A stretch of DNA of 64,000 nt, taken from assembly GCA_018262985.1 (NCBI GenBank), contig JADFDI010000002.1, positions 330,314-394,313 of the forward strand. Direction: 5' to 3'. Origin of the DNA: Spirochaetota bacterium. Its GTDB lineage: Bacteria > Spirochaetota > Spirochaetia > Treponematales > UBA12059. Shown in pieces: positions 2,095 through 60,373 of this stretch. Under the pieces are notes generated by a model that worked only from the letters and a program-made list of their open reading frames with translations, made no database searches and was not told the DNA's origin. Within the stretch, counting starts at the first letter, position 1. Every line of letters begins with the position of its first letter. Made by a program: the position numbers and the translations under genes.

Positions 2095-3894
2095 CTAGAG
2101 GAAGGAGGAGACGTCGAGCAGGCCCGGAATCGCGATGAGCGCGTCGAGGAAACCGGCCTTGCGGCGCTTCACGTAGAGCCTCAGGACGGCCACGCGCTCT
2201 TCCTCGAGCAGCTCGAAATCCTGCACCAGCAGCGGATCCGATTCGGACAGGCCGCTCTCGTCGGCGGCGCCTCCGAACCATACCTTTTCCACGCTGAAAC
2301 CGCCCTTGCCGAGCAAGCCGCCCGGCCGCGCCTCGAGGCGCATGCCGAAGAGCACGGGATACAGGTTCTCCCGGACGTCGCGTCGCAGCGCCTCGTCCAC
2401 CGGCCGTTCGGGACGGGGCCGCAAGGCCACGGGCACGACGTACGCCCCGCTTACCGATTCGAAACCGAGGTTGACGAGGGTGCCGGGGACGCGGTCGAGC
2501 AGGAGGGCCTGGGCCTCGACCAGGGCGCTCACCGCGACGCCGTCCACCGACGCGAGTCGGTCGCCGCGGTTGGGCGCCCGCGGCGCTCCGGGAAACGCGT
2601 AAAGCAGTTCGGGAGGGGCCGGATCCTCGTGGAACGCGAGGCCCGTCCATGCGTGCACGGTCTCGCCGCCGTCGTAGAGGCCGGGCAGGAGCGCGACGAT
2701 CCAGCGCGACGGCACGGCGAAGTTGAGTCCCTGGAATTGGGGCATGCCCGCGAATACGATGCCGGCGAGCTCGCCTCGCTCGTCGAGCAGCGGTCCTCCG
2801 GAGTTGCCGGGGTTCACCGCCACGTCCACCTGCACCGCGTCGCCGAGCTCGAGGAAGCGACGGCCGGTCGCGCTCACGATCCCGCTCGTCACGGTGCTTT
2901 CGAGGCCGACCGGGCTTCCGATCGCGTAGATGCGGTCGCCGGGGGCGAAGGCGGAGCGCCCCGAGAACGAGAGCCAGAACTCCGGGACCGCCTCGGTCTT
3001 GAGCAGGGCGAGGTCGAACACGGGATCCCAGCCCACGACCCGCGCCGGCACCCTGAGTTCCGAGCTGCCGGGAAGGCGCACCGAGAGCCGCGAGAAACCC
3101 TCGTACTCCGGGTCGACCTCGCTCGCGATCACGTGGTAGTTGGTCAGGATATAGCCTGACCTGTCGATGAAGAAGCCGGACCCGATCACGCGTTCGGGGG
3201 TCCCGACGCCGCGATCGACCCTGATGCCCTTGTTGACCCAGATGGTGACGGTGCCGCGAAGGAGCTCGCGCATTGGATCGGACCCCGACGCGTACGCGGA
3301 CATGGGGCCGTCGAGCGCCGCGGGAGCCCGGGCCAGTATGGTCCGCAGCACCGCGCGGTTGCGGCCGTCCATGGCTCGCGCGGTCCAGGTTCCGAGCTCG
3401 GTTCCGCCCATGGCCCCCAGTTCGAAGGCCTCGAGGAACACGGCGAAGGCCGCCGCCTCCTTGCCCCCGTTCCAGAAATTCTCGGCCTTGGCGAGCAGGA
3501 AGTGCGATTCCGTTCCCGGACCGAGCCGCGCGCCTTCGAAGAGCGGCGCCGCGAGCGGATGCGAGGCGAGCGAGCGCGCCGACCGGAGCGCCGAGAGCGC
3601 GAGCGCGGGATCGGCTCCGGGGTCGGCGGCGGCGTTTTCGAGCCTGGAAGCGATCTCCGCGGCGGCTCCGCGCGCGATCCGGCGCCAGCTCTCGCGCTTC
3701 GCCGCGTCGCCGAGCTCCGCGAGGTACACGGCTTCCTCGAAAGCCAGGGCCGGATCGGACGCGACCAGGGTCTCGAGCTCGTCCGATCTCACGCGGTTCC
3801 AGTCGCCGGGGAGCTCCGGCTCCGACGCGCAGGCGCCGAGCCAAAGCGAGAAGGCCAGTACGGCGAACGGCTTCGCCGCGCGGGGCCGCCTCAC
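2095..3894 (-). CDS. HtrA/trypsin-like serine protease, predicted lipoprotein
   Basis: 599 residues from a GTG that overlaps the previous stop (GTGA). A lipobox (LGAC, Cys22) predicts a lipid-anchored envelope protein. Residues ~30-200 are a helical region rich in Ala and Leu. The S1C-type protease domain follows with a complete triad: His254 in LTNYHVIAS, Asp294 in DPVFDLALLKT and Ser365 in NPGNSGGPL. After residue ~400 come one or two PDZ-like segments (LASVDGVAV, LLVQDFELLE). The likely role is proteolytic quality control or processing at the cell envelope. It is the last gene of the ftsH chain, directly after a TPR secreted protein, so the two may act together. The product family is clear; substrates cannot be predicted. 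Confidence 0.85.
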   Translation of the reverse strand: MRRPRAAKPFAVLAFSLWLGACASEPELPGDWNRVRSDELETLVASDPALAFEEAVYLAELGDAAKRESWRRIARGAAAEIASRLENAAADPGADPALALSALRSARSLASHPLAAPLFEGARLGPGTESHFLLAKAENFWNGGKEAAAFAVFLEAFELGAMGGTELGTWTARAMDGRNRAVLRTILARAPAALDGPMSAYASGSDPMRELLRGTVTIWVNKGIRVDRGVGTPERVIGSGFFIDRSGYILTNYHVIASEVDPEYEGFSRLSVRLPGSSELRVPARVVGWDPVFDLALLKTEAVPEFWLSFSGRSAFAPGDRIYAIGSPVGLESTVTSGIVSATGRRFLELGDAVQVDVAVNPGNSGGPLLDERGELAGIVFAGMPQFQGLNFAVPSRWIVALLPGLYDGGETVHAWTGLAFHEDPAPPELLYAFPGAPRAPNRGDRLASVDGVAVSALVEAQALLLDRVPGTLVNLGFESVSGAYVVPVALRPRPERPVDEALRRDVRENLYPVLFGMRLEARPGGLLGKGGFSVEKVWFGGAADESGLSESDPLLVQDFELLEEERVAVLRLYVKRRKAGFLDALIAIPGLLDVSSFL

Positions 3895-5786
3895 TCCACG
3901 ACCTCGAGGAAGGCGACGCCCTTGAAGCGGTAGACTCGATACCGTATCCCGTCCCGCTCGCCGACGCCCGAGGGCGGCAGGACCGGCCCGAGGTCGAAGG
4001 GCTTGCGGCCTATCCAGAACGCGGAGCCCGAGGCGTCGGGGACGAGCGCCAGCTCGGTCCCCGCGCGGAACAGCCTCAGGATCCGTCCGTCCTTCACGAT
4101 GGCGGCCGTATCGTACCTGCCGTCGAAGCGGCTCGCGAACTCCCAGGTTTCGCTCCCGTCGGGGCCGGGCCGGACGGACGCGTCCCACAACCCGTCCCCG
4201 TCGTAGTCCCATTCGCGGGAGGGGGACGGAACGTAGGTCTCCCGGTAATCGGGCCGTCCGTCGCCGTCGAGGTCCACCTCGAGCAGGCGCGGCGTCGAGC
4301 GCGCGAGCTCGCCGTCATCCGCGAGCCAGGTACGCCGGCCTTCGAAGATCCCGTCGCCGTCGAAGTCGAGGAGCTCCAGCGATACGGCCCCCCGCTCGCG
4401 ATGCACCACGGCGACGACGCCCTGGGCGTCGGTCCTGAAGGAATCCGCGGGAACCCCGGCCTCGATGTCGAAACTCTCGGTCGAGCGCAGGTCGACTCGG
4501 GAAGCGGCGAAGGCGAGGGACGCGGCGGCCCGTTCGGTCGGAACGGCTACGGCCGAGCGTCGGGCGAGCCGGAAGGGGCGCGATCCGGAGGAAGCGAGCT
4601 CGTCGAAGCTGAGCAAGGGCAGGGAAAAGGCTCCCGGAGCGAACCAGTAGCGCCGAACCTCGCCGCCGGACTCCCAGGCGAGCTCGGCGACGCCGGGCCA
4701 GGCCCCGTAGGCCACCGACACCGTTTCGCCCGAAAGGACTGCTTCGGCCCTCACGGGAGCGCCTTCCGAAAGATGGACGGCGAGCTCGGCGCGCCCGTCC
4801 TGGTCGAGGTCGAGCTCGAAGCGGACGATCGCGCCGTTCCGGTAGGCGGCTCGCGCCTCGGGAATGCCGTCGCCGTTGGCGTCGGCGAGCAGGGCGCCGC
4901 TCCACCCGAGCAGGAGGGCGGTGATGGCTTCGCGCTCATCCGCGTCCCTCGACGCCTCGATGAGCGCTTCGACGTCGCGGCGGTAGGCGCTGCCGCCCGA
5001 AAGGATCTCGGCGGCCGCCCGCGGAGCGGACACGAGGCCTGAACGGACCGCCAGCACGCTCGTGGCCCCGCTGCGGCCGCCCTGCGCCCTGAAGGCGCGG
5101 AGAGCCGCCAGGGCGTCCGCCTCCCGGCCCGGCAGGCGGACGAGGGCCGGCAGTTCAGGGTCGACGAGCGACCAGGACGAAAGTCGCGAAAGGACGCGCT
5201 CGCGGATTTCCCGCTCCGATCCGCCCGCGGGTTCGGACGGGAAACCGCCCGAGTCGACGTAGAGCCGGCCGAAGCGCGGATCGAAGGGATGGCGGTCCAT
5301 GCCGGTCGCCAGCGCGGCGAGGAAGCCGTCGCGGTCGCCCGAGAAGCGGAGGCAGGCGGCGCGGATCCAGTCGCTTTCCGGATCGGCGCCCTTTCCGGGC
5401 AGGGCGGCCAAGGCTTCGTCGTAGCGCTTGGTCTCGTAGAGCACCCGGGCGAGCAGGCGCCTGGCCTCGTCCATCGAGTATGCGGAGAAGCCATTGGCGG
5501 CTATGGCCGTCTTGAGCATGGCTTCGGCCTCGAAGCGCGGCAGGTCGAGCCCGAGGCCGAGCAGGGCCTCCAGGTAGAGCGCGTCGGACTCCGCCGGCGC
5601 GAAGGAACGGGCGGAATGGAGGAGCGCGCGGGCTTCGGTGACCCTCCCCGCGCCCGCGGCTTCCCGGGCGCGCTCGAAGTAGCTCCGGGACGCCGAGCGT
5701 TCCCATTCCGACTGCGCCGCGGCGGGAGGAACCGCCAGGGCGAGGACGGCCAGCAAGGGCAGGACGCCGGCCCCCCGCGTCCTCAT
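3891..5786 (-). CDS. Secreted TPR-like protein with EF-hand-type calcium loops
   Basis: 631 residues starting at an ATG that overlaps the ftsH stop (ATGA). A signal peptide (about residues 1-24, ending AAAQ) predicts export. The N-terminal third is a helical TPR-like array (YFERAREAAGAGR, YETKRYDEALAAL). Five acidic loops of the DxDxDG type follow: DANGDGIPE, DLDQDGRAE, DFDGDGIFE, DLDGDGRPD and DYDGDGLWD. Such loops bind calcium in EF-hand, dockerin-like or FG-GAP proteins. I do not recognise a specific family. It is flanked by ftsH and the HtrA-like protease with overlapping ends on both sides, so it is translationally coupled to two proteases and may be an envelope scaffold or adaptor. Function is inferred only from architecture. 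Confidence 0.7.
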   Translation of the reverse strand: MRTRGAGVLPLLAVLALAVPPAAAQSEWERSASRSYFERAREAAGAGRVTEARALLHSARSFAPAESDALYLEALLGLGLDLPRFEAEAMLKTAIAANGFSAYSMDEARRLLARVLYETKRYDEALAALPGKGADPESDWIRAACLRFSGDRDGFLAALATGMDRHPFDPRFGRLYVDSGGFPSEPAGGSEREIRERVLSRLSSWSLVDPELPALVRLPGREADALAALRAFRAQGGRSGATSVLAVRSGLVSAPRAAAEILSGGSAYRRDVEALIEASRDADEREAITALLLGWSGALLADANGDGIPEARAAYRNGAIVRFELDLDQDGRAELAVHLSEGAPVRAEAVLSGETVSVAYGAWPGVAELAWESGGEVRRYWFAPGAFSLPLLSFDELASSGSRPFRLARRSAVAVPTERAAASLAFAASRVDLRSTESFDIEAGVPADSFRTDAQGVVAVVHRERGAVSLELLDFDGDGIFEGRRTWLADDGELARSTPRLLEVDLDGDGRPDYRETYVPSPSREWDYDGDGLWDASVRPGPDGSETWEFASRFDGRYDTAAIVKDGRILRLFRAGTELALVPDASGSAFWIGRKPFDLGPVLPPSGVGERDGIRYRVYRFKGVAFLEVVE

Positions 5787-37668: not shown

Positions 37669-37824
37669 TGGCGACAAGCGGGCAGCTTCGCGTCCGCGCT
37701 CGTGTTCCTGGACCTCAACGGCTTCGACTTCGACGCGACTGAGGACGAGGCGTACGAAGCCATGATGTCCGTCGCCCGGTCGGAACTCCCGAAGCCTGGG
37801 TTGACCCGCTTCTTCATCAGGCAT
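37664..37824 (+). pseudogene. Remnant of a Doc/Fic-type toxin
   Basis: The translated sequence HDGDKRAA, a one-base frameshift, then FASALVFLDLNGFDFDA and TEDEAYEAMMSVARSEL match the Fic-motif region and C terminus of death-on-curing (Doc) toxins. The N-terminal half, including the catalytic HPF part, is missing. The frame shift falls in GCAGCT-TCGCG, where one T appears lost. No intact Phd-like antitoxin is present. A decayed phd-doc module is the best reading. Confidence 0.65.
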
Positions 37825-37907
37825 TCCAGGCCGCGCACGGAGTGGCATTCCGGATCCGCCATTGCACTCAGGCCCTTCGTTACGGTGAGCCTCACCGCAT
37901 GGCGTTG

Positions 37908-37936
37908 CCCTCTTCTTCCCCATCCCTCTGCGTCCT
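37908..37936 (-). repeat. CT-rich repeat copy 1 beside vapC
   Basis: On the minus strand it reads as GCAGAGGG followed by a purine-rich AGAAGAGGG tract. A diverged copy in the same orientation lies at 38643-38685, so the pair flanks the truncated vapB and vapC. Similar CGCAGAGG-type repeats are dispersed in many bacterial genomes. Confidence 0.55.
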
Positions 37937-38004
37937 GCGTCGCTTCGCGCCGCTTTCGTAGAAGAATGGATTGTAGCGCCCGCGCTTCGCGCAGGCGACC
38001 TCAT
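37937..38004 (-). repeat. Double-hairpin element, copy E0 (68 bp)
   Basis: Minus-strand reading: starts ATGAGGTCGC, left hairpin of about 9 bp with a GAA loop, core CAATCCATTC, then right hairpin GCGGCGC-GAA-GCGACGC. The right half is almost identical to copies E4 and E5 at 55.4 kb. It sits where the 5' part of vapB should be. Confidence 0.85.
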
Positions 38005-38009
38005 CGGCG

Positions 38010-38120
38010 CCTCTGCGGGAATTCGTGAACGTGCGGAAGGCACGGAACCTGAAGGACCTCAAAGGCAGGATCGCCTTCGCCGAGGGCTACGACCACAAGG
38101 CCATGAGAAGCACGCGATGA
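38010..38120 (+). pseudogene. 3' remnant of a VapB antitoxin gene
   Basis: The frame LREFVNVRKARNLKDLKG and then AEGYDHKAMRSTR matches the C-terminal half of VapB proteins and ends in a TGA that overlaps the vapC ATG. The DNA-binding N-terminal half is absent: an in-frame TAG lies upstream at 37974-37976 inside element E0. A GTG within the frame could still start a short toxin-binding peptide. Confidence 0.6.
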
Positions 38121-49661: not shown

Positions 49662-50963
49662 CTACGCCGTCTTCTTCGGCCAGTACTGGTCGACGAGCTT
49701 GGTCTGGAGACCGGTTTCCTGCCGCTCGAAGCAGTCGGCGAGGATTTCCCAGCCGCGGTCGAGGGCCTGCTCGAGGGGGATGTTGACGGAGAGGTCCATC
49801 ATGCCCTTCTCGAATTTCTCGCCGTACTTGAGGAGCTTGCCGTCCCACGCGGACATCTGGAAGCCCATCGACTTCTTCTCGAGGGTGTCCTTGTACGCGG
49901 CGTAGAGCTTGATCATGCCGTCCATGATGGCGCGGTGGTCGCTCCGGGTCTTGCCGTTGACCATCTGCTTGAGGCGCGACAGCGAGCCGAAGGGCTCGAT
50001 GCGGCCGTTCTTGAGGTAGAACTGGCCCTCGGTGATGTAGCCCGTGTTGTCCGGCACCGGGTGGGTGACGTCGTCGCCGGGCATCGTGGTGACCGCGAGG
50101 ATGGTGATGGAGCCCGAGCCCTCGAAGTCGACCGCCTTCTCGTAGCGGCTCGCGAGCTGCGAGTAGAGGTCGCCCGGGTAGCCGCGGTTCGAGGGAACCT
50201 GCTCCTGGGTGATGGCGATCTCCTTCATGGCGTCGGAGAAGTTGGTCATGTCGGTCAGCAGCACGAGGACGTTCTTGCCCTTGAGGGCGAAGCGCTCGGC
50301 GACGGCGAGCGAGATGTCCGGCACCATGAGGCACTCGACCACGGGGTCGCTCGCGGTGTGCACGAACATGATGGTCTTGCTCATGGCGCCGCCGGACTCG
50401 AGCGCGTCCTTGAACGAGAGGTAGTCGTCGTACTTGAGGCCCATGCCGCCGAGCACGATGATGTCGACCTCGGCCTGCATGGCGATGCGCGCGAGGAGCT
50501 CGTTGTACGGCTCGCCGGAGACCGAGAAGATCGGCAGCTTCTGGCTCTTCACCAGGGTGTTGAAGAGGTCGATCATCGGGATGCCCGTGCGGATCATCTC
50601 CTTGGGGATGATGCGCTTGGCCGGGTTGACCGAGGGGCCGCCGATGGTGATCAGGTTCTCGTCGAGGGTCGGGCCCTTGTCGCGGGGCTCGCCGGCGCCG
50701 TCGAAGATGCGGCCCATGAGCGAGTCCGAGAAGGACACCTTCATCGGGTGCCCGAGGAAGCGGACCTCGTCGCCCGTGGAGATGCCGCGGCCGCCCGCGA
50801 ACACCTGGAGGCTCACGAGGTCGTCCGAAAGCCGGATGACCTCGGCCAGGGAGGCGCCGAAGCGCGTGCGGACCTCGGCCAGCTCGCCGTAGGCGACGCC
50901 CTCGGCCTTGACCGCGATGACGTTGCCCGTGATCGACTCGATGCGGGAATATACCTTCTTCAT
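49662..50963 (-). CDS. atpB: V-type ATP synthase subunit B
   Basis: 433 residues of the non-catalytic subunit. It keeps the beta-barrel N terminus ([14 protein letters not shown]), [19 protein letters not shown] and the [14 protein letters not shown] motif. Walker A is replaced by SGEPYNE, as usual for subunit B. It alternates with subunit A in the V1 hexamer. Confidence 0.97.
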
Positions 50964-50965
50964 GG

Positions 50966-52738
50966 TCAGCGCTCCAGGGTTTCGATGTGGCGGGCGGCGA
51001 CGGGCTCGAGTCCTTCGGAGCGCTCGGCGACGGCGGCCCTCAGGGCGGACTCGACCTCCGCGAAGCGCGGGGTGTTCCACTCCGCGCCGTTCAGGTCGAT
51101 GAAGAGCTGGCGGACGCGGTTGAAGTACGAGCGCGCCTCGTCCTTGTCCTTGAGCCGGAACGCGGTGCCGAGCACCGCGAGCACGAGGCCGAAGACCCGC
51201 TTCTGGCGTTCGGGCGAGACGGCCGCGTCCACCGGGTCGAAGGAGTTCTGCTGGAGGTAGACCGCGTCGAGCAGCTCTCCCTTCAGGTACACGGCGAAGT
51301 CGTCGAGGCTGGTGCCCTCCTCGCCGACGACCTTCATCATCTGGCCGACCTCGGAACCGCGGAACAGGAAGCCGTGGGCGTAGGAGACGATGTCGTGGGC
51401 GATGATGCCGCCGTACTTCGACCAGGAATCCAGGGGGTGGATGGCGGGGTACTTGCGGGCGTCGGAGCGTTCGCGCGAAAGGCCGTGGAAGGCGCCGACC
51501 ACCTTGAGGGTGGCCTGGGTGACCGGCTCCTCGAAGTTGCCGCCCGCGGGGCTGACCGTGCCGCCGACCGTGACCGAGCCGGTGGAGCCGTCCGCGAGGC
51601 GGACGATGCCGGCGCGCTCATAGAAGCTGGCGATGACCGACTCGAGGTAGGCGGGGAAGGCTTCCTCGCCGGGGATCTCCTCGAGGCGGCCGGACATCTC
51701 GCGCATGGCCTGGGCCCAGCGGCTCGTGGAGTCCGCGAGCAGGAGGACGTCGAGGCCCATCTGCCGGTAGTACTCCGCCATCGTGACCGCCGTGTACACG
51801 GAGGCCTCGCGCGCGGCGACCGGCATCGAGGAGGTGTTGCACACGATGATGGTGCGCTCCATGAGCGAGCGGCCCGTGCGCGGGTCGAGGAGCTCGGGGA
51901 ACTCCTTGAGGGTCTCGACGACCTCGCCGGCGCGCTCGCCGCAGGCCGCGATGATGACGATGTCGACGTCGGCGTGGCGGCTCGTGATCTGCTGGAGCAC
52001 GGTCTTGCCGGCGCCGAAGGGGCCGGGGATGCAGTAGGTGCCGCCCTTGGCCACCGGGAAGAAGGTGTCGATGAGGCGGACGTGGGTGACCATCGGCTCG
52101 GTCGGTTTGAGGCGCTCGGCGTAGCAGTCGACGGCGCGCTTGACCGGCCACTGGAACAGCATGGTCACCTTGTGGACGACGCCCTCGGAGTCGACGAGCT
52201 CGGCCACCTGGTCGGTGACCTCGTACTCGCCGGCCTTGGCCACAGACTTGACGGTCAGGTCGCCGTAGAGGTTGAACGGCACCATGATGCGGTGCGTGAA
52301 CGAGCCTTCCGGCACGGTGCCGAGGGTGTCCGAGCGTCGCACGACGTCGCCGGCCTTGGCGACCGGGGTGAAGGCCCAACGGGTCTTGCGCGGCAGCGCC
52401 TCGAGGTAGACGCCCGGCTCGAGGAAGTAGCCGGTCTTCTCGGCCACCTCGGGCAGGGGGTTCTGGAGTCCGTCGTAGATCTGGCCGAGCAGGCCCGGCC
52501 CGAGCTCGACGGCGAGCAGCTCGCCGGAGAAGGAAACCGGGTCGTCGACCTTGATCCCCTTCGTGAGCTCGAAGACCTGGAGCTGGACCGAGTCGCCGCG
52601 CACGCGGATGATCTCGCTCTTGAGCGAGCGTCCCTGGTTCTCGATGTAGGCGACCTCGTTCATGTACACGGGTCCGTCGACGCGGACCGTGACCATGTTG
52701 CCGTTGACGCCCGTCACTCTTCCTTTGGTAGCGGTCAT
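50966..52738 (-). CDS. atpA: V-type ATP synthase subunit A (catalytic)
   Basis: 590 residues. Walker A GPFGAGKT (239-246), arginine finger region and [19 protein letters not shown] are present, along with the bulge domain unique to A subunits (residues ~115-190). It hydrolyses or makes ATP. It starts four bases inside the DUF2764 stop and is followed by atpB after two bases. Confidence 0.98.
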
Positions 52739-53346
52739 GTAGTCACTCCGGTATCTTCGCTTGCGGTGCCGGCGCTTCCGCCCGGTCCGGGGGCGCCCGA
52801 GGCGCCGAGTATGTCGCGGTAAACCTCGCCGTAGGCCGCCCTGCCCCGCTCGACCTCGAAACGGGCGGTCCGTTCGAGGATGCGCAGCTTGAGGCCGTAG
52901 GCGACGAGGGCTTCGGTGTCGAAGTAGTGGCCGACCTGGAGCCGCTCGACGACGGCCCAGCGCTCGCGCTCGATGACGAGCTCGCCGTCGAGCGGACTTT
53001 CCGCCTGGAAGGCCGCCTGCGCCGCCCGGAGTCCGTCCCATTCGACGGAACCGGGCCGGACGTGCCGGTCGGCCGGCTGCCCGAGCCTGCCCGCGCGGAG
53101 CCGCGCGAGCTCGTTCCGCAAGGTCAGCTCCCAGCGGTAGTAGGCGCCGAGGAGGCGCGATCGCCGCGCGACGGGAGGCGGAACCCCGTCGTCCGGCAGC
53201 GAGAACGGCGCTTCCTTCAGGAGCCCGAAGTCGCGCGCGGACAGGTGGACGGCGCAGCGCTCGAGGAAGGCCTCGAACCCGAGCGGCGCGACGCCGCGCC
53301 AGGAGAGCGACTGGAGGGTCGTGCCGAAGTAGTAGTAGCTGGCCAC
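52735..53346 (-). CDS. DUF2764 protein of the V-ATPase operon
   Basis: 203 residues beginning MASYYYFGTTLQSL, the hallmark start of DUF2764. The gene lies between atpE and atpA, its standard place in spirochaetes and Chlamydiae. It has a helical, archaeal-subunit-C-like appearance (no predicted membrane segment), and operons of this type lack an annotated subunit C. A role as stalk subunit or adaptor is plausible but not shown. Confidence 0.88.
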   Translation of the reverse strand: MASYYYFGTTLQSLSWRGVAPLGFEAFLERCAVHLSARDFGLLKEAPFSLPDDGVPPPVARRSRLLGAYYRWELTLRNELARLRAGRLGQPADRHVRPGSVEWDGLRAAQAAFQAESPLDGELVIERERWAVVERLQVGHYFDTEALVAYGLKLRILERTARFEVERGRAAYGEVYRDILGASGAPGPGGSAGTASEDTGVTT

Positions 53347-53351
53347 GGCGC

Positions 53352-53966
53352 TCAGCCCCCCGCGAGGGCTTTGTCGACGATGGCGGCCACGTGGGCGTTG
53401 AGGTGCTGGCCGAGGATCTCCGCGACGGACTCGGCGGTGTAGTCGTAGTAGGCGGAACCGTCCTTGCGGGCGATGCGGAAGCCGGCCTTGAGGCCGGGGT
53501 GGCTCTTGATCACGAGCCCGGCCTTGAAGCCGTCGGCGAGCTTGGCCTTGATGGCGGCCTCGACCTTCGCGAGGTCGGCGGCGGGTACGAGCAGCGAAAG
53601 GTCCTTCGCCTCCTCGCCCTTCCAGCCGGCGAGCACCGCGGGGATGGCCTTGGCCACGGCGTCCGCGTCGTAGGCCCTGGCGACCTCGTCGCGGGTGATC
53701 GCGGCCAGCATGCGGTCGATCTCCTTGCGGAAGGCGAGAGCGGCGTCGCGGGCGGCCTGGGCGATGGCGGCCTTGCCAGCCTCCTCGGCGCGCGCGGCGT
53801 CGGCGGCGGCCTTTTCGCGCAGGGCCTTCGCCTCGCGTTCGGCGGCCTCGATGATGGCCTTCCGTCCGGCTTCGGCCTCGGCCGCGATGCGCGCGGCTTC
53901 CTTCCCGGCGGCTTCGACGCCGTCCCGCTTGATCTTCTCGAGAAGCTCCTGCAGTCTGATGTCCAT
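53352..53966 (-). CDS. atpE: V-type ATP synthase subunit E
   Basis: 204 residues. The N-terminal ~95 form an Ala/Glu/Lys-rich coiled coil (KEAARIAAEAEAGRKAIIE); the C-terminal globular head has SYYDYTAESV-like AYYDYTAESVAEIL. It is the peripheral stator stalk. First recognised structural gene in the operon. Confidence 0.92.
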   Translation of the reverse strand: MDIRLQELLEKIKRDGVEAAGKEAARIAAEAEAGRKAIIEAAEREAKALREKAAADAARAEEAGKAAIAQAARDAALAFRKEIDRMLAAITRDEVARAYDADAVAKAIPAVLAGWKGEEAKDLSLLVPAADLAKVEAAIKAKLADGFKAGLVIKSHPGLKAGFRIARKDGSAYYDYTAESVAEILGQHLNAHVAAIVDKALAGG

Positions 53967-54008
53967 GGCTGCTTTCGTTCCTTTCCCGAAGGATTGGCGA
54001 TCCCTGAG

Positions 54009-54374
54009 TCAGCGGGACTCGCCGGATTCGATATAGCGTCTGACCTTGCTTATCTTGCGGCCCAGGAGCTCGGTTATGGCCTTCGGCTCCTCGTGGCGGA
54101 CGACGAGTTCGAGGGCGCCCTTCCGGACGGCCGCCGCGACTTCGTCGATACTTTTATATAGCGAGCCCTGCATTCCGTCAACGAAAAGAGCCAGTTCCCG
54201 GCACGATTCCTGCTCACGGACCAGCAGGGCACCGTTCTCGCGATAGACATAGGGGGTCACCTCGGAACGTTCGAAGCGCTCACGGAGGCGTTCGTCTATC
54301 GCTGCGAGGTCTTCGGCCAGGTCATCGAGCTCCGCGCGCAGGATCTTCAGGAAGAACGCGACTCGGTCCGCCAC
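54009..54374 (-). CDS. Small conserved-looking protein at the head of the V-ATPase operon
   Basis: 121 residues from a GTG with AGGAGG at good distance. Two long helices are predicted (FLKILRAELDDLAEDLAAIDE; ALELVVRHEEPKAITELLGR) and the protein is soluble and charged. A -10/-35 pair lies directly upstream, so it is the first gene of the operon. It could be a peripheral stalk partner (the position of subunit G/H or F, neither of which is otherwise seen), but no family match is claimed. Confidence 0.6.
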   Translation of the reverse strand: MADRVAFFLKILRAELDDLAEDLAAIDERLRERFERSEVTPYVYRENGALLVREQESCRELALFVDGMQGSLYKSIDEVAAAVRKGALELVVRHEEPKAITELLGRKISKVRRYIESGESR

Positions 54375-54410
54375 CAGGCGCCTCCTTGGGACGATGATAC
54401 CGCATGTAAA

Positions 54411-54438
54411 AGTATAGGAGAGCGGCGCGGCGGCACAA
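54411..54438 (-). promoter_or_regulatory. Promoter of the V-ATPase operon
   Basis: TTGTGC, 16-base spacer and TATACT on the minus strand; leader of about 30 nt to the GTG at 54374. Confidence 0.6.
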
Positions 54439-54479
54439 GGCGTTCAAGCACCCGGATCCGCTTTACACGGAAACAACGC

Positions 54480-54508
54480 TTGACGTTTGTCCTGCCCCGT
54501 GCTATATT
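54480..54508 (+). promoter_or_regulatory. Promoter of the candidate small RNA / tRNA-Gly region
   Basis: TTGACG, 17-base spacer and TATATT on the plus strand, one of the best sigma70-like promoters in the window. No protein gene follows it. Confidence 0.75.
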
Positions 54509-54514
54509 CTGGGC

Positions 54515-54624
54515 AAGAACTTCGCGACCCGCAAGGGCCGCCCGGCAGTCGAAAGGCATGCCATTTCGCGACCCCTTCCGGGGCGCCCCGTTTCCGACGC
54601 CGTTTTTCACGACGTCTTTTTTTT
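54515..54624 (+). ncRNA. Candidate ~110-nt small RNA
   Basis: It begins seven bases after the -10 box and ends at a terminator: an 8-pair stem with one C-A mismatch (54596-54603 with 54609-54616) followed by eight T residues. Inside are two copies of TTCGCGAC, each leading into a small hairpin (CCC-GCAA-GGG and CCCC-TTCC-GGGG). No long frame with a ribosome site is seen. It does not match SRP RNA, 6S, tmRNA or RNase P that I recognise. Alternatively it is the 5' part of a tRNA-Gly precursor with an attenuator. Confidence 0.5.
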
Positions 54625-54658
54625 GCCCCGACGCCTTCCCCGAAGGCTGAATGGATAC

Positions 54659-54852
54659 CGCGCCGGTCGTACGGCGAGAACCCGAGCGCAAGCGAGGGCC
54701 TCCAGCCGAACGATCGCAACCTTGAACGTGAGTCGCGGAAGCGACGAACAATAATCGCGCCGGTCTTACGGTGAGAACCCGAGCGCAAGCGAGGGCCTCG
54801 AGCCGAACGATCGCAACCTTGAACGTGAGTCGCGGAAGCGACGAACAATAAT
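54659..54852 (+). repeat. Two 97-bp tandem repeats leading into tRNA-Gly
   Basis: Units 54659-54755 and 54756-54852 differ at only a few positions. Each unit begins CGCGCCGGTC(G/T)TACGG, which copies the 5' end of the tRNA-Gly gene that starts in phase right after the second unit. Each contains the hairpin GTCGC-GGAA-GCGAC and a GAGCG-CA-AGCGAGGGCC motif that recurs downstream. Confidence 0.9.
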
Positions 54853-54853
54853 C

Positions 54854-54925
54854 GCGCCGGTCGTATAACGGCTATTACCCCAGCCTTCCAAGCTGGAGAC
54901 GAGGGTTCGACTCCCTTTCGGCGCT
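54854..54925 (+). tRNA. trnG: tRNA-Gly (anticodon TCC)
   Basis: A 72-nt cloverleaf. Acceptor GCGCCGG/TCGGCGC has one G-T pair; anticodon stem CCAGC/GCTGG with loop CTTCCAA gives TCC; T arm GAGGG-TTCGACT-CCCTT. CCA is not encoded. The 3' end is repeated and inverted several times downstream. Confidence 0.95.
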
Positions 54926-55095
54926 TCAATCGTACGGCCCGCCATCCGGCGGGCCGTTTTTCATCGTAGCGCCGAAAGGGAGTCGAACCGAGGAGCCGTC
55001 CCGAGCGATGAGCGAGGGCCCTGCGCCGTGATGGCGCAGGGAGGCTCCGAGGCGGGCTGGAGGATCGAGGACAGGAAGTCCGAGATCCGGAAGCC
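54909..55095 (+). repeat. 187-bp module M1 (uninterrupted copy)
   Basis: It starts with the tRNA-Gly 3' tail (GACTCCCTTTCGGCGC), holds a terminator, an inverted copy of the tail (GCGCCGAAAGGGAGTCGAAC) and about 110 bp of GC-rich sequence ending CCGGAAGCC. It is the clean reference for the interrupted copy M2. Confidence 0.85.
54934..54961 (+). terminator. Terminator of tRNA-Gly (in M1)
   Basis: A perfect 10-bp stem ACGGCCCGCC/GGCGGGCCGT, ATCC loop and a T5 tail. Confidence 0.9.
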
Positions 55096-55167
55096 GACTC
55101 CCTTTCGGCGCTTCAATCGTACGGCCCGCCATCCGGCGGGCCGTTTTTCATCGTAGCGCCGAAAGGG

Positions 55168-55228
55168 ATGAGGTGGTCGCTTAGCGACCACCTAAACCCA
55201 TTCCCTGCCGAAAACGTCCGGAGGACGT
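55168..55228 (+). repeat. Double-hairpin element E1 (61 bp)
   Basis: Starts ATGAGGTGGTCGC; left hairpin AGGTGGTCGC-TTA-GCGACCACCT (10 bp), core AAACCCATTCC, right hairpin ACGTCC-GGA-GGACGT. It splits the inverted tRNA tail (AAAGGG^AGTCG) relative to M1. Confidence 0.85.
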
Positions 55229-55252
55229 AGTCGAACCGAGGAGCCGTCCCGA

Positions 55253-55318
55253 TCGACCGGTCGCGAAAGCGACCACGACAATCCATTCCACCAGAGAACG
55301 GTCATCGAAGATGATCGA
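55253..55318 (+). repeat. Double-hairpin element E2 (66 bp)
   Basis: Left hairpin GGTCGC-GAAA-GCGACC, core CAATCCATTCC beginning at base 27, right hairpin TCATC-GAA-GATGA. The insertion site relative to M1 is CCCGA^GCGATG. Confidence 0.85.
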
Positions 55319-55344
55319 GCGATGAGCGAGGGCCCTGCGCCGTG

Positions 55345-55542
55345 ATGAGGCCGCCCGCCGAAGGCGGGCACGTCAATCCATTCCTCTCCGAAAGCGCCGC
55401 GAAGCGACGCATGAGGCCGCCCGCCGAAGGCGGGCACGTCAATCCATTCCTCTCCGAAAGCGGCGCGAAGCGACGCATGAGGCCGCCCGCCGAAGGCAGG
55501 CACGTCAATCCATTCCTCTCCGAAAGCGGCGCGAAGCGACGC
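55345..55542 (+). repeat. Double-hairpin elements E3, E4, E5 (3 x 66 bp in tandem)
   Basis: Three nearly identical 66-bp units start at 55345, 55411 and 55477, each with ATGAGG, left hairpin GCCCGCC-GAA-GGCGGGC (E5 has one change), core CAATCCATTCC and right hairpin with a GAA loop. The triplet is inserted at CGTG^ATGGCG relative to M1. Confidence 0.9.
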
Positions 55543-55607
55543 ATGGCGCAGGGAGGCTCCGAGGCGGGCTGGAGGATCGAGGACAGGAAGTCCGAGATCC
55601 GGAGGTC

Positions 55608-55673
55608 GACGCCGTCGCCCGCCGAAGGCGGGCATGTCGATCCATTCCACTCGGCGACCGGCGCGGAGCGACG
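55608..55673 (+). repeat. Double-hairpin element E6 (66 bp)
   Basis: Left hairpin GCCCGCC-GAA-GGCGGGC, core GATCCATTCC, right hairpin around a GGA loop. It separates the end of M2 from the next copy of the tRNA tail. Confidence 0.8.
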
Positions 55674-55740
55674 TACTCCCTTTCGGCGCGACACACCGCG
55701 GCCCGCCATCAGGCGGGTTGTCTTTCATCGGGCCCCGGCG
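55674..55740 (+). repeat. Degenerate third module M3
   Basis: It begins ACTCCCTTTCGGCGC and has a decayed version of the terminator hairpin (GCCCGCC-ATCA-GGCGGG) followed by TTTC. The remaining bases to 55848 hold no feature I can name. Confidence 0.6.
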
Positions 55741-55848
55741 AAATCGAGGAGGAGGAGGCGCGGCGAACCGTAAAACGCGGACGCGCCGCCTCGTGACGAC
55801 GCGAAGCGAGCTCGGGCTCCGGCGGCTGTTCTCCCCCTCCTTCCCATC

Positions 55849-55857
55849 TGCTATAGT
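55849..55857 (+). promoter_or_regulatory. Extended -10 promoter of the J-domain gene
   Basis: TGC followed by TATAGT; the ATG at 55864 is six bases downstream, so the message would be leaderless. The -35 region is weak, as is common for extended -10 promoters. Confidence 0.6.
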
Positions 55858-55863
55858 CGCGGC

Positions 55864-56493
55864 ATGCCGAACCGCTTCGCGCGCCGCATCAGGGACGGCG
55901 AGATCGACAGCCCCGAGGCGCTCGCCTCGGAGTTCCGCGCGCTGGCCAAGTCCACCCACCCGGACCTGGCCGGCCCCGGCGCCGATCCGCACGAATTCGT
56001 CCGGGTCCGCGCCGAGTACGAGGCGGCCCTCCGCGACTTCGAGCGCCACCGCTTCGGGGCGCGGCGCGACGGCTTGAAGCCCGAGCCCCGCGCTGGGGCC
56101 GACGACGGTGACGGTGACGCGCGGGCATGGACCGCGCTCGCGCTCCTCCTGAAGCGCGGCTTTCCGAAGACGCCCCGCCACGAGAAGGAGCGCCTCCGCT
56201 ACGAGTACGCGCTCTGGCGCTTCGAGCGGGAGCTGCACGCGTTCGGGGAGCATGCCGCCCGACGTTTCGGCGCGTTCGCGGCGGCGCTGGGCCCGCTCAA
56301 GGATTCCGATCCCGCGGAGGCGCGACGCGTGGTCGCCCTGCTCGAGGAGCTGCTGGAGTACCGGCGCACGGGCATCGAGGCGCTCCGCACCTCCATCGCC
56401 CACGGCCTCGAGGCGCTCAGGCGCCGGGCAGTGGACCCGGCCCTGCCCGCCTTCGTGGAGGCCCTGGCCGGGATACGACTCGGTCCCGCCTGA
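55864..56493 (+). CDS. J-domain (DnaJ-like) protein
   Basis: 209 residues. The N terminus carries a short J domain with the HPD motif (LAKSTHPDLAG, about residues 27-37). There is no G/F or zinc-finger region, so it is a class C J protein. The remaining ~130 residues are helical and charged, with no recognised domain. It should recruit DnaK to a specific client. No Shine-Dalgarno sequence is present. Confidence 0.78.
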   Translation: MPNRFARRIRDGEIDSPEALASEFRALAKSTHPDLAGPGADPHEFVRVRAEYEAALRDFERHRFGARRDGLKPEPRAGADDGDGDARAWTALALLLKRGFPKTPRHEKERLRYEYALWRFERELHAFGEHAARRFGAFAAALGPLKDSDPAEARRVVALLEELLEYRRTGIEALRTSIAHGLEALRRRAVDPALPAFVEALAGIRLGPA

Positions 56494-56550
56494 AGAGCGG
56501 CCGAGCGACCGCCCCCGCGCACGCACGCCGACAAAAAACGGAAGCTCCCT

Positions 56551-56580
56551 TTGACCAGCCTCGCGGACCGAGGCTAGACT
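56551..56580 (+). promoter_or_regulatory. Leaderless promoter of trkA
   Basis: TTGACC, 18-base spacer, TAGACT, then seven bases to the trkA ATG at 56588. The geometry is the same as at ligA. Confidence 0.75.
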
Positions 56581-56587
56581 TCGCGCC

Positions 56588-57940
56588 ATGCGCATCGTGG
56601 TCGTGGGCGGGGGTATCATCGGCACGCAGGTAGCCCGCCGCCTCGTGGAAAAGGGACAGGACGTCGTTTTGGTGGAACGAGATCCCATCAAGGCGCGGCA
56701 CCTGGTGAACGACCTGGATTGCCGGGTCGTCTGCGGAGAGGGAACGGATCTCGACGCCCTCACCGAGGCGGGAGTCTCCGACGCGGACCTGCTCGCCGCC
56801 CTGACCGGTTCCGACGAGGTCAACATAGTCAGCTGCCTGGTCGCCGGCCGCGAATCGCCGGCGCTCAGGACCATCGCCCGCGTCAAGAATCCCGATTACG
56901 CCAGGCTCGGGGGGGCGTCCGGCTCGCCTTTCCCCGGCATCGACCGCGTGGTTTACCCGGAGGTCGCGGCGGCCCACGAGCTCGTGGCGGCCGTAGGCCG
57001 CGGTTCCACCGCCGACCAGACCGACCTGCCGGCCTGGGGACTCCGGCTTCGAGCCTTCGACATCGCCGACGGCTCGGGTCTCGAGGGAGTCCCGCTCAAG
57101 GATCTGCGGAGCGCGAGGAAGGGCGATTTCCTCGTGCTGGCCATACGACGCGGCGAGGAGCTGATCGTACCGCGGGGGGACGAGCGCCTCCTGGCCGGCG
57201 ACCGCGCCTTCGTCATCGGGTCGCCCGCGGGCCTCGACGCGGCGCTCGGCGCGCCACCCGCCCCGCTCGGCCGGAACCGCTCGGTGGCCGTGATCGGCGG
57301 CGGGCTCGTCGGCGAGGAGGTGCTGCGCGGCTTCTTCGGCGACGGCAAGGCGCCCCGCGGCAAGGCGGCCGTATTCGAGCAGTCCATCGAGAAATGCAAG
57401 GTCATCGCGGAGCGCTTCCCCGAGGTGCTGGTCGTCCACCGCGACATGGCCGAAGAGGAAGCCTTCGCCGACGAGCGCATCGGCGCCTACGACCTGGTGG
57501 TCGCGGCCACGGGCAACCAGGACTTCAACCTGCTCTCCGCGGCGCGCGCCAAGGCGCTCGGGGCCAAGCGTTGCGCCGCCCTGCTCGTCTCGGGCGAGTA
57601 TCCGGAAATCCTCGAAAAGCTGGACGTCGACGTCGCGGTGAGCCTCCGGGACGCTGTGACCGCGACCGTGATCGCGGCTACGCGGGCCGGCTCGCTCCGG
57701 ACGCTCCGGGCTTTCCTCGGCGAGGGCCTCGAGCTCGTCGAGGCCGAGATCCGACCCGACGCGCCCCTAGCCTACAAGACGCTCAGGGAGGCGCGGCTGC
57801 CCGATGGCGCGCTGGTCGCCTTCGTCGGACGCGCGGGAAAGACCCTGCCCGCCACGGGAGACACGAGGCTCCAGCCCGGCGACCGAGTGGGCATCCTGGT
57901 CCGGACGGACGTCGCGCAGAACGTCGAATCCCTGGTATAG
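56588..57940 (+). CDS. trkA: Trk potassium uptake regulator TrkA
   Basis: 450 residues as a tandem duplication of RCK units. Each half has a Rossmann NAD site (VVVGGGIIGTQVARRL near residue 3; VAVIGGGLVGEEVLRGF near 235) and a TrkA-C domain (about 145-225 and 365-445). It binds NAD(H) or ATP and gates TrkH at the inner membrane. Nine bases separate it from trkH. Confidence 0.95.
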   Translation: MRIVVVGGGIIGTQVARRLVEKGQDVVLVERDPIKARHLVNDLDCRVVCGEGTDLDALTEAGVSDADLLAALTGSDEVNIVSCLVAGRESPALRTIARVKNPDYARLGGASGSPFPGIDRVVYPEVAAAHELVAAVGRGSTADQTDLPAWGLRLRAFDIADGSGLEGVPLKDLRSARKGDFLVLAIRRGEELIVPRGDERLLAGDRAFVIGSPAGLDAALGAPPAPLGRNRSVAVIGGGLVGEEVLRGFFGDGKAPRGKAAVFEQSIEKCKVIAERFPEVLVVHRDMAEEEAFADERIGAYDLVVAATGNQDFNLLSAARAKALGAKRCAALLVSGEYPEILEKLDVDVAVSLRDAVTATVIAATRAGSLRTLRAFLGEGLELVEAEIRPDAPLAYKTLREARLPDGALVAFVGRAGKTLPATGDTRLQPGDRVGILVRTDVAQNVESLV

Positions 57941-57949
57941 GCGGCGACG

Positions 57950-59410
57950 ATGCCCTGGAAGACCATCCTTACCCTGATTTCCTTCATGTTGCTGCCCATC
58001 AGCGCGCTGATGGGAATTTCCGCCGCCGTCGGCGTCCCCTACGGCGAGGGCGCCGAGGCGTTCCGCGCGTTCGGACCGCCCATCGCGGCGAACACCGCGT
58101 TCCTCCTGCTGATGCTGCTCCTCGGCGGCGCCAGGCGGCGCGGGGTCGAGAGCTTCCCGCCGCGGGCGGGCCTCCTCTTCGTCGCGCTCTCGTGGACGGC
58201 TGCTTCGATGAGCGGTTCGCTGCCCTTCATGCTGTCAGGCCGTATCCCGTCGTTTACCGACGCCTTCTTCGAGACGATGAGCGGCTTCACCACGACGGGG
58301 GCGACCATACTCGGGGATATCGAATCCCTGCCCAGGTGCCTGCTCTTCTGGCGCTCGGCCACCCACTGGCTCGGGGGCATGGGCATCGTGGTGCTCACGG
58401 TCGCGCTATTTCCCCTGCTGGGCATCGGCGGCTTCAGGCTCATGGAAGCGGAGGCGCCCGGCCCTTCCGTGGACCGCATCAGCGCCCGAATTTCCGGCAC
58501 GGCGAAACGCCTGTGGCTGGTCTATCTCGGGCTCACCGTCGTCGAGACGGTCCTCCTCATGGCCACCGGACAGGACGCCTTCGACGCGGCGACGCACGCC
58601 TTCGGCACTATGGCCACGGGCGGATTCTCCCCGAAGAACGCGAGCATAGGCCATTACGGAAACCCGGCCGCCGAGTGGATCGTGGCGGTGTTCATGTTGC
58701 TGGCGGGCATGAATTTCACCCTGCACTACCGCGCGCTGACCGGGCGTCCGCGGGCGGTGCTCCGCGACCTCGAGTTCAGGGTCTACATCCTCGTCGTCGC
58801 GGCGGCGGCCGGCGCGATCGCCGTCGACCTGGCGCTCTCGGGGCTGGCGGCCGGCGAGGCGGCGCGCTCGGCCGTTTTCCAGGCGGCCTCGGTCATCACC
58901 ACCACCGGCTACGCGACGGCGGATTTCGCGCTTTGGCCGGCCTTTTCGCAGGCCGTGCTCTTCCTGCTCATGTTCGTGGGCGGCTGCGCGGGCTCCACCG
59001 GCGGCGGCATCAAGGTGGTCAGGCTCGTGGCGCTCTTCAAGATGGCCGCCAACGAGCTTCGGCTCGCGACGAGGCCCCGCGGCGTGTTCGCGGTGGTCAT
59101 GAACGGCCGGGCGGTCAAGAAGAACGTCATCTACGACACGGCCGCCTTCGTCGTCATCTACCTCTTTTTGGTGGTCGCCGGCACCGTCGTGGTCTCCTCC
59201 GGCGGCTTCGATACGACCACGTCCCTGACCGCCACGCTGGCGACCCTCGGAAACATCGGACCGGGTCTCGCCCTGGTGGGCCCGATGGCCAACTACGGCT
59301 TCATGCCGGACTACATCCTGTGGTTCCTCTCCTTCCTGATGCTGGCGGGCAGGCTCGAGATCTTCACCGTGTTCGCGCTGTTCCTGCCGGAATTCTGGAG
59401 GAAGCGCTAG
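57950..59410 (+). CDS. trkH: Trk potassium transporter TrkH
   Basis: 486 residues with about ten to twelve membrane segments and four P-loop repeats (for example MSGFTTTGAT, MATGGFSPKN, ITTTGYATADF, LGNIGPGLAL) that build the K+ filter. Conserved GGCAGSTGGGIKV is present. It takes up K+ and depends on TrkA. Confidence 0.96.
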   Translation: MPWKTILTLISFMLLPISALMGISAAVGVPYGEGAEAFRAFGPPIAANTAFLLLMLLLGGARRRGVESFPPRAGLLFVALSWTAASMSGSLPFMLSGRIPSFTDAFFETMSGFTTTGATILGDIESLPRCLLFWRSATHWLGGMGIVVLTVALFPLLGIGGFRLMEAEAPGPSVDRISARISGTAKRLWLVYLGLTVVETVLLMATGQDAFDAATHAFGTMATGGFSPKNASIGHYGNPAAEWIVAVFMLLAGMNFTLHYRALTGRPRAVLRDLEFRVYILVVAAAAGAIAVDLALSGLAAGEAARSAVFQAASVITTTGYATADFALWPAFSQAVLFLLMFVGGCAGSTGGGIKVVRLVALFKMAANELRLATRPRGVFAVVMNGRAVKKNVIYDTAAFVVIYLFLVVAGTVVVSSGGFDTTTSLTATLATLGNIGPGLALVGPMANYGFMPDYILWFLSFLMLAGRLEIFTVFALFLPEFWRKR

Positions 59411-59444
59411 CCGGGACGACGCGCGCGCCCCGCTCGGGGCCGCC

Positions 59445-59474
59445 TTGCGCCCTTGGCCGCGCCTCGGCTAGAAT
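59445..59474 (+). promoter_or_regulatory. Promoter of speD-speE
   Basis: TTGCGC, 18-base spacer and TAGAAT. The leader to the GTG at 59588 is about 107 nt, long enough for post-transcriptional control. An in-frame ATG at 59495 is an alternative start. Confidence 0.5.
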
Positions 59475-59587
59475 CGCCCATTCCGCCCGGCGTCATGGAC
59501 TCCGGGCGGACCCGGACGGGACGCGCCCGACGCGCGCAGACGGGCATCAAGGCCGCGCCGCGCGCGGCCGGGGGCGGGACGGTAACA

Positions 59588-60373
59588 GTGCTCAGAAGGG
59601 TCAGCGGAAGGAAGATCAAGCTCGAGGGATTCAACAACCTCACGAAGACGCTGTCGTTCAACATCTACGACATCTGCTACGCCAAATCCAGGGAAAGCCA
59701 GATCGATTACCTCGAGTACATCGACGGCGAGTACAATTCGGAAAAGCTCCTCACGATAGTGGAAGAGGTGACGCGCATCATCGACGCGCGCCTGGTGAAC
59801 GTCTCCACCCAGGATTACGATCCGCGGGGAGCCAGCGTGACCGCGCTGATCAACGAGCACGACCATAACCTGCCCAAGTCGGAGTACGCGGGCGGACACG
59901 CGGTCGGACACCTGGACAAGAGCCACATCACCGTCCACACCTATCCCGAGCACGACGCGGAGTCGGGCATAGCGAGCTTCCGGGTCGACGTCGACGTCTC
60001 CACCTGCGGCATGATCTCGCCGCTCCGCGCGCTCCACTACCTGATCGACAGCTTCGATTCCGACATCGTGCTGATGGACTACCGGGTGCGCGGCTTCACG
60101 CGCGACTCGAAGGGCCGCAAGATCTACATCGACCACGACATCGCGAGCATCCAGGACTACATAGCCGAGGACGTGCTGTCCGACTACCAGGCTTACGACA
60201 TAAACATCCTCTCCGCGAACCTCTTCACCACGCGGATGATCAAGAAGAAGCTCGTCCTGGACGACTACCTCTTCGGTCCCGAGGTGGACGGGCTCGGCCA
60301 GAAGGAACGACGCCGCGTCCGCGAGCTTTTGAGGCAGGAGATGCAGGAGATCTTCGAGTGCCAGAACTACTAG
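59588..60373 (+). CDS. speD: S-adenosylmethionine decarboxylase proenzyme, E. coli type
   Basis: 261 residues, close to the 264 of E. coli SpeD. The self-cleavage Ser112 lies in HLDKSHITVHTYPE, where it becomes the pyruvoyl group. Also conserved are GFNNLTKTLSFNIYDICYAK and STCGMISPLRALHYLI. The GTG is chosen because the family begins a few residues before KLEGFNNL; upstream in-frame sequence is low complexity. It makes decarboxylated SAM for speE, which overlaps it by 16 bases. Confidence 0.95.
   Translation: MLRRVSGRKIKLEGFNNLTKTLSFNIYDICYAKSRESQIDYLEYIDGEYNSEKLLTIVEEVTRIIDARLVNVSTQDYDPRGASVTALINEHDHNLPKSEYAGGHAVGHLDKSHITVHTYPEHDAESGIASFRVDVDVSTCGMISPLRALHYLIDSFDSDIVLMDYRVRGFTRDSKGRKIYIDHDIASIQDYIAEDVLSDYQAYDINILSANLFTTRMIKKKLVLDDYLFGPEVDGLGQKERRRVRELLRQEMQEIFECQNY

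Follow-up and report, generated by a model that had tools for sequence, protein, structure and literature searches.

Rickettsia palindromic elements (RPE) are small palindromic repeats that are able to enter the neighbourhoods of RNA genes, and in-frame insertion into genes is a known habit of theirs. Single-strand transposons are known to excise precisely. REP sequences have been defined as a single palindrome that carries an unpaired GTAG or CGTC tag at one of its ends (PMC3733652). The IS200/IS605 elements have a hairpin near each end, make no target duplication, show strand polarity and are joined precisely (PMC6006769, PMC8266576). A further paper deals with insertion into palindromic repeats, by IS1397 and by IS elements in REPs (PMC1525189). 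This work concerns short two-hairpin sequences in a Spirochaetota genome that, in our opinion, are probably mobile elements and should be compared with these systems.

The window is the whole stretch of DNA that was analysed, 64,000 nucleotides of this genome (G000 below). The locus begins at a tRNA-Gly (TCC) gene at 54854..54925 (+), found by ARAGORN and as Rfam tRNA, whose 3' end is the start of M1, an uninterrupted unit of 187 bp at 54909..55095 (+). In M1 the tRNA 3' end is followed by a terminator hairpin, an inverted copy of the tRNA 3' end (a 22-nt match at 54968..54989, +) and a folded body; a unit of this type then closes with the tRNA 3' end once more, in direct orientation, and a second terminator. 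M2, at 55096..55674 (+), is an M1-type unit with six elements at four sites. The first-pass annotation of this DNA had claimed that M2 (578 bp) is M1 plus its inserts, and the gap-tolerant alignment it proposed bears this out, since the only gaps are of 61, 66, 198 (3 x 66, head-to-tail) and about 66 bp. All of the inserts lie on the + strand. Insert 1 (61 bp, 55168..55228) interrupts the inverted tRNA T-arm at AAAGGG^AGTCGA, and the inverted copy within M1 is the intact counterpart of its target. Insert 2 (66 bp, 55252..55317) is placed at GTCCCG^AGCGAT with at most 3 ambiguous bases, and belongs to a second sequence type beginning ATCGACC. Insert 3a (66 bp, 55345..55410) lies at GCCGTG^ATGGCG in a loop of a body hairpin and is followed by the tandem copies 3b (55411..55476) and 3c (55477..55542), while insert 4 (66 bp, 55609..55674) lies at G^ACTCCC, where the direct copy of the tRNA 3' end begins, at the T-loop position.

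Three of these junctions can indeed be read against M1, as had been said, with 1-3 ambiguous bases. Junctions 1, 2 and 3 have 2, 4 and 4 equivalent placements, G^A is among the allowed placements at each, and the possible target duplication is at most 1 (A), 3 (CGA) and 3 (ATG) bases, which agrees with the earlier statement that duplication is absent or no longer than about 3 bases. The fourth junction, at CCG^ACTCCC, has two substitutions just upstream (GGAAGCCG vs GGAGGTCG) and is not exact base by base; insert 4 also extends one base past the end given for M2 in the first-pass annotation (55673). The opening 74 bp of the unit are repeated with zero mismatches. Because of this perfect recurrence, and because the inserts belong to a family with dozens of copies elsewhere, chance cannot account for the M1/M2 pattern. 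At 55675..55730 (+) the tRNA 3' end and the terminator occur a third time, as a decayed copy. The sister genome has a tRNA-Gly without any such unit, neither M1 nor M2, and shares the right flank of this third copy.

Other repeats were seen near tRNA-Gly genes. Direct repeats of 97 bp lie upstream of this one (window 54659-54852, and L034 at about 3700-3995), each opening with the first 12-13 bases of tRNA-Gly, and the sister has related but different repeats. Elsewhere in the genome (L143, G000:C18:37386-38256) a second tRNA-Gly(CCC)-like copy is broken: a related two-hairpin element divides its T-loop (GGGTTCG^ACT...).

The inserts belong to a family of dispersed two-hairpin elements that measure 60-69 nt in 86 of 87 copies, the remaining one being 75. 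The common plan has ATGAGG at the 5' end, then two variable hairpins on either side of a conserved linker around AATCCATTCC, followed by the end. The second sequence type starts with ATCGAC, keeps the same plan, and is represented by insert 2 and, in L004, by three copies next to tRNA-Val. The first-pass annotation had drawn attention to insert lengths that are a multiple of three; this does not carry over to the family, where 38/87 copies have such a length, and the spread of lengths (60-69 plus one of 75) rules it out as a coding signal. A model built from nine aligned copies (R1) was used to search for more, and its copy numbers are lower bounds since no more than 150 candidates were scored. 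It finds at least 64 matches in this genome at E<=1 and at least 46 at E<=1e-4, at least 59 and at least 42 copies in two congeners at E<=1e-4, and one element or more in at least 19 of the 23 genomes of the taxonomic family. Across the order, under stricter filters, 28/116 genomes match at E<=1e-5. Rfam gave no match to an element or a tRNA-linked unit (described below) at E<=0.5 in window positions 50000-60000, and at ten loci nothing exceeded the gathering score except tRNA and SRP RNA. No description of this family was found in the literature searched, in which subscription journals are thinly covered. A solitary copy lies elsewhere in the window, at 37937..38004 (-). At its place (window 37800-38100) the start of a small gene, which resembles one for a VapB-type antitoxin, is intact in the sister genome.

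Both hairpins covary. In 73 aligned copies 96.8% of cells are paired, and 10 of the 12 pairs have changed on both sides in at least one copy, although the alignment was fitted to the structure model and this favours the pairing result. Cells changed on both sides number 110 vs 24.3 in shuffles, with 0/500 shuffles as high, and the covariation score is 0.356 vs at most 0.048 for slid partners. A model-free count gives a perfect stem of at least 5 for the first hairpin in 72/89 copies (14% of shuffles) and for the second in 28/89 (7% of shuffles). The second is rarely perfect because its common form has one mismatch within the stem.

The flanking bases show the target. For 44 copies in relatives the preceding base is G in 42, the following base is A in 42, and both hold in 40; in this genome G before and A after are found in 34/45 copies, tandem and misaligned ends included. 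The cut may fall on either side of the A, since the element itself begins with A. When the flanks were joined and folded, the junction lay in a hairpin loop at 27/61 sites vs 102/564 control G^A sites, or at 27/62 vs 129/720 (18%) when local G^A controls were used. Outside a CACGGAGGCACGG-like repeat tract the figure is 20/35, vs the same 129/720 local controls (p=6e-7), and inside the tract it is 7/27. Typical sites are GCGCGCCAAGG^ATGGCGCGC and GGGCCGACAGG^ATGTCGGCCC, and a loop of this kind in M2 contains insert 3. GG^A is the preferred target where it lies in a hairpin loop, in a short CACGGAGGCACGGAG-like tract, or in the T-arm sequence of a tRNA 3' end, direct or inverted. Elements often land in short intergenic tracts of the AACCACGGAGGCACGGAGACACGGAG type, whose length varies between congeners (L046, L051-L053, L057, L065, L072 and others).

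Presence or absence, which the first-pass annotation had wanted compared between strains, was compared at 13 sites of this genome with one or two congeners, and it yields empty counterparts at six of them (L046, L051, L056, L066, L072, L081) plus one tRNA-Met site. Filled counterparts occur at five (L051, L056, L063, L065, L077), two of which are also empty in another genome, and four are not interpretable (L053, L086, L070, L075). The cleanest, exact to the base, is L051, CCACGG^AGGCACGG, filled in G000 and G002 and empty in G001: the latter reads ...CGAACCACGGAGGCACGG..., and the element stands between CACGG and AGGC in the other two. The empty counterparts at L046 and L072 are less exact, being in a repeat tract with flanks that differ. 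The inverted T-arm of tRNA-Met is whole in G001 (L234), CAGGGACAGGACTCGAA, and split at CAGG^ACTCG in G000 (L011), CAGGGACAGG[element]ACTCGAA. The comparison also runs in reverse, for two elements of G001 contig C87 are absent from the matching stretch of the window. Since some of the same sites are empty in related species, elements have come and gone.

It is important to realize that M1 is not a neutral target. It is a member of a second family, the tRNA-linked units, and the same plan is found behind other tRNAs, where each unit carries the sequence of the tRNA that it follows. At least 16 nt are repeated in inverted form after 7/44 tRNAs here and 9/45 in G001; with the 3' ends of other tRNAs as a control, inverted copies number 2/1760 and 2/1592. 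Besides the window (54909-55730), units were listed in G000 at L119, L126, L127, L138, L140, L141 and L082, and in G001 at L214, L220-L222, L231, L234, L236 and L241-L243. Eight of them share a fold plan in which the inverted arm pairs with the direct arm and side hairpins stand in between; these are single-sequence folds, more consistent than the alignment of seven bodies, which is too poor for a covariance model. The bodies differ between sister species and the tRNA-derived arms stay. At tRNA-Ser only a bare palindrome is present in G001, and in G000 a body of about 108 bp stands at its middle. Body hairpins at L119, L127, L140, L141 and L082 carry the loops CAGGAAG and CAGGATG, which we take to resemble CsrA-binding GGA loops; the genome has a CsrA gene (L211), and a CsrA sponge is a candidate role. 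Among the element copies listed, 12/46 are found no more than 1 kb downstream of a tRNA vs 0.4 expected, and they fall at 5 tRNA places by script count, so they are not 12 independent events. Contigs C5 and C8 of G000 (L004, L011) share their first 87 bases, which may be one end of an insertion sequence at which the assembly broke beside tRNA arrays.

At the places that match the M2 inserts, the units of tRNA-Met, Ser, Leu, Glu and Pro have no interruption, so the uninterrupted form is the older and M1 is the empty state. The evidence supports insertion, with the interrupted form derived, and the precise insertion read from this locus in the first-pass annotation is strengthened by the empty sites in congeners, by the G^A shared among relatives' copies and by the uninterrupted sister units. 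The reverse would be an ancestral interrupted form, with M1 either formed when all six elements were precisely lost or restored through gene conversion by a unit free of elements. It is odd for M2 to have collected four insertion events and M1 none when the two are almost alike, and single-strand transposons are able to excise exactly. To explain the near-identity, gene conversion is needed, or else a duplication that was recent and led on to a burst; from this locus by itself the M1/M2 duplication cannot be dated relative to the insertions. However, the exact loss of six elements at once is improbable in itself, the other units are intact at the corresponding places, the tRNA-Met site is empty in G001 and filled in G000, and the sister tRNA-Gly lacks a unit altogether; we regard ancestral interruption as quite unlikely. 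We give even less weight to an artefact in which the assembler joined reads from other repeat copies. The assembly has 22 contigs, several ending in these repeats, and the repeats are short and alike. Yet the array is traversed by unique flanks and distinct insert sequences, the same element splits comparable targets in three congeneric assemblies, and the family and its habit of insertion would stand even if the order of M1 and M2 were wrong. Alongside what is observed directly, namely the family, its ends and target bases, the covarying hairpins and the presence or absence at orthologous sites, we consider it probable that the inserts are non-autonomous mobile elements of about 60-69 nt that enter G^A without duplication, with a preference for loops, T-arms and tracts, and that M1 is the older, empty form.

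How such elements would move is a different matter. Judging from the hairpins by themselves, a single-strand, hairpin-recognising mechanism fits best. A strand-specific enzyme would recognise the folded single-stranded DNA and cut both element ends, the excised piece would be joined into an exposed G^A loop, and local duplication may then make the head-to-tail triplets. Our searches found no enzyme for the elements and saw no relative of full length that shares their ends and has an ORF, and the 33 Y1 loci scanned have no such parent nearby; half-matches to R1 are present elsewhere in the genome search. The obvious candidates are the host RAYT (Y1) transposases, which could move REP-type repeats in trans. 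This genome has six PF01797 genes (Y1, RAYT-type), the elements have hairpins and make no target duplication, and an element lies near the members of one orthologous RAYT pair. That pair, however, accounts for both of the 2/33 Y1 loci with a confident copy, and three of the six Y1 loci here (L036, L037, L039) have GGGGACAGAGCT-type repeats instead, apparently those genes' own family. There is neither a GTAG tag nor an inverted pair, and no correlation appears across 23 genomes: G017, G006, G020, G012, G004 and G013 have elements and no PF01797 match (one genome is 57% complete), and G009 has five matches and no element. The locus scan and the genome comparison rule out RAYT as the leading view, and as an alternative we think it unlikely. 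Transposition could also be dispensed with, if replication slippage and template switching at palindromes gave hairpin-shaped duplications. The tandem triplets, the inverted tRNA 3' ends and the fast-changing stems do resemble palindrome-driven replication errors, but local errors cannot supply dozens of unlinked copies with shared ends, linker and length, and we find this very unlikely.

Within the single-strand mechanism one can go further and propose a system in layers, where single-stranded DNA in folded form serves as the mobile piece and also as its address. Elements would home to G^A loops, above all in tRNA-templated palindromic units whose body was itself inserted at a like loop, and an undescribed non-Y1 enzyme would run the whole. 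The inserted body is suggested by tRNA-Ser, with its bare palindrome in G001 and its body in G000. We offer this larger scheme tentatively, as a possibility that is doubtful as a whole. Whatever its fate, the family gives base-exact natural before/after pairs for very small mobile hairpins, and the target rule (G^A, often in a loop) is directly testable on single-stranded DNA. It also exposes tRNA-adjacent units that carry inverted and direct copies of tRNA 3' ends; the origin of such tRNA-specific palindromes is now a testable question.

Against the known systems the elements compare as follows. With REPs, REPINs and their RAYT (TnpA_REP) genes they share short, dispersed, non-coding hairpin repeats, fast-changing stems and no expected target duplication. 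They differ in being two tandem hairpins rather than one or an inverted pair, in not flanking Y1 genes, and in a G^A target that is often in a hairpin loop. Instead of a GTAG or CGTC tag, copies have ATGAGG (or ATCGAC) at the start and finish in the second hairpin; the linker does hold ACGTC, but not at an end adjoining a palindrome, which excludes a CGTC-REP. By inspection of the 89 copies listed the ends are not mutually inverse, as in a REPIN they would be, and the association with a RAYT gene is confined to the two Y1 loci above. Classical MITEs are excluded by the lack of inverted ends and by the 1-3 ambiguous junction bases at most. The first-pass annotation had taken the missing duplication to set the elements apart from ordinary IS-derived MITEs; this is right for the classical IS-derived type and goes too far for the IS200/IS605 type, since elements of that type make no target duplication either. 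IS1397 and the ISs in REPs likewise enter palindromic repeats, but they are autonomous, whereas the insert here is itself a 65-nt hairpin piece. Unlike RPE, the elements follow no length-of-three rule (38/87), and the open-frame scan of 24 loci does not prove genes. Compared with derivatives of IS200/IS605, no parent with the same ends was found near the 33 Y1 loci, and G^A with a loop context takes the place of a fixed 4-5 base site; the subterminal hairpins, the absence of target duplication, the strand polarity and the precise joining are what such a derivative has. The elements lack what defines REPs, REPINs and classical MITEs, and they belong with the small non-autonomous hairpin repeats.
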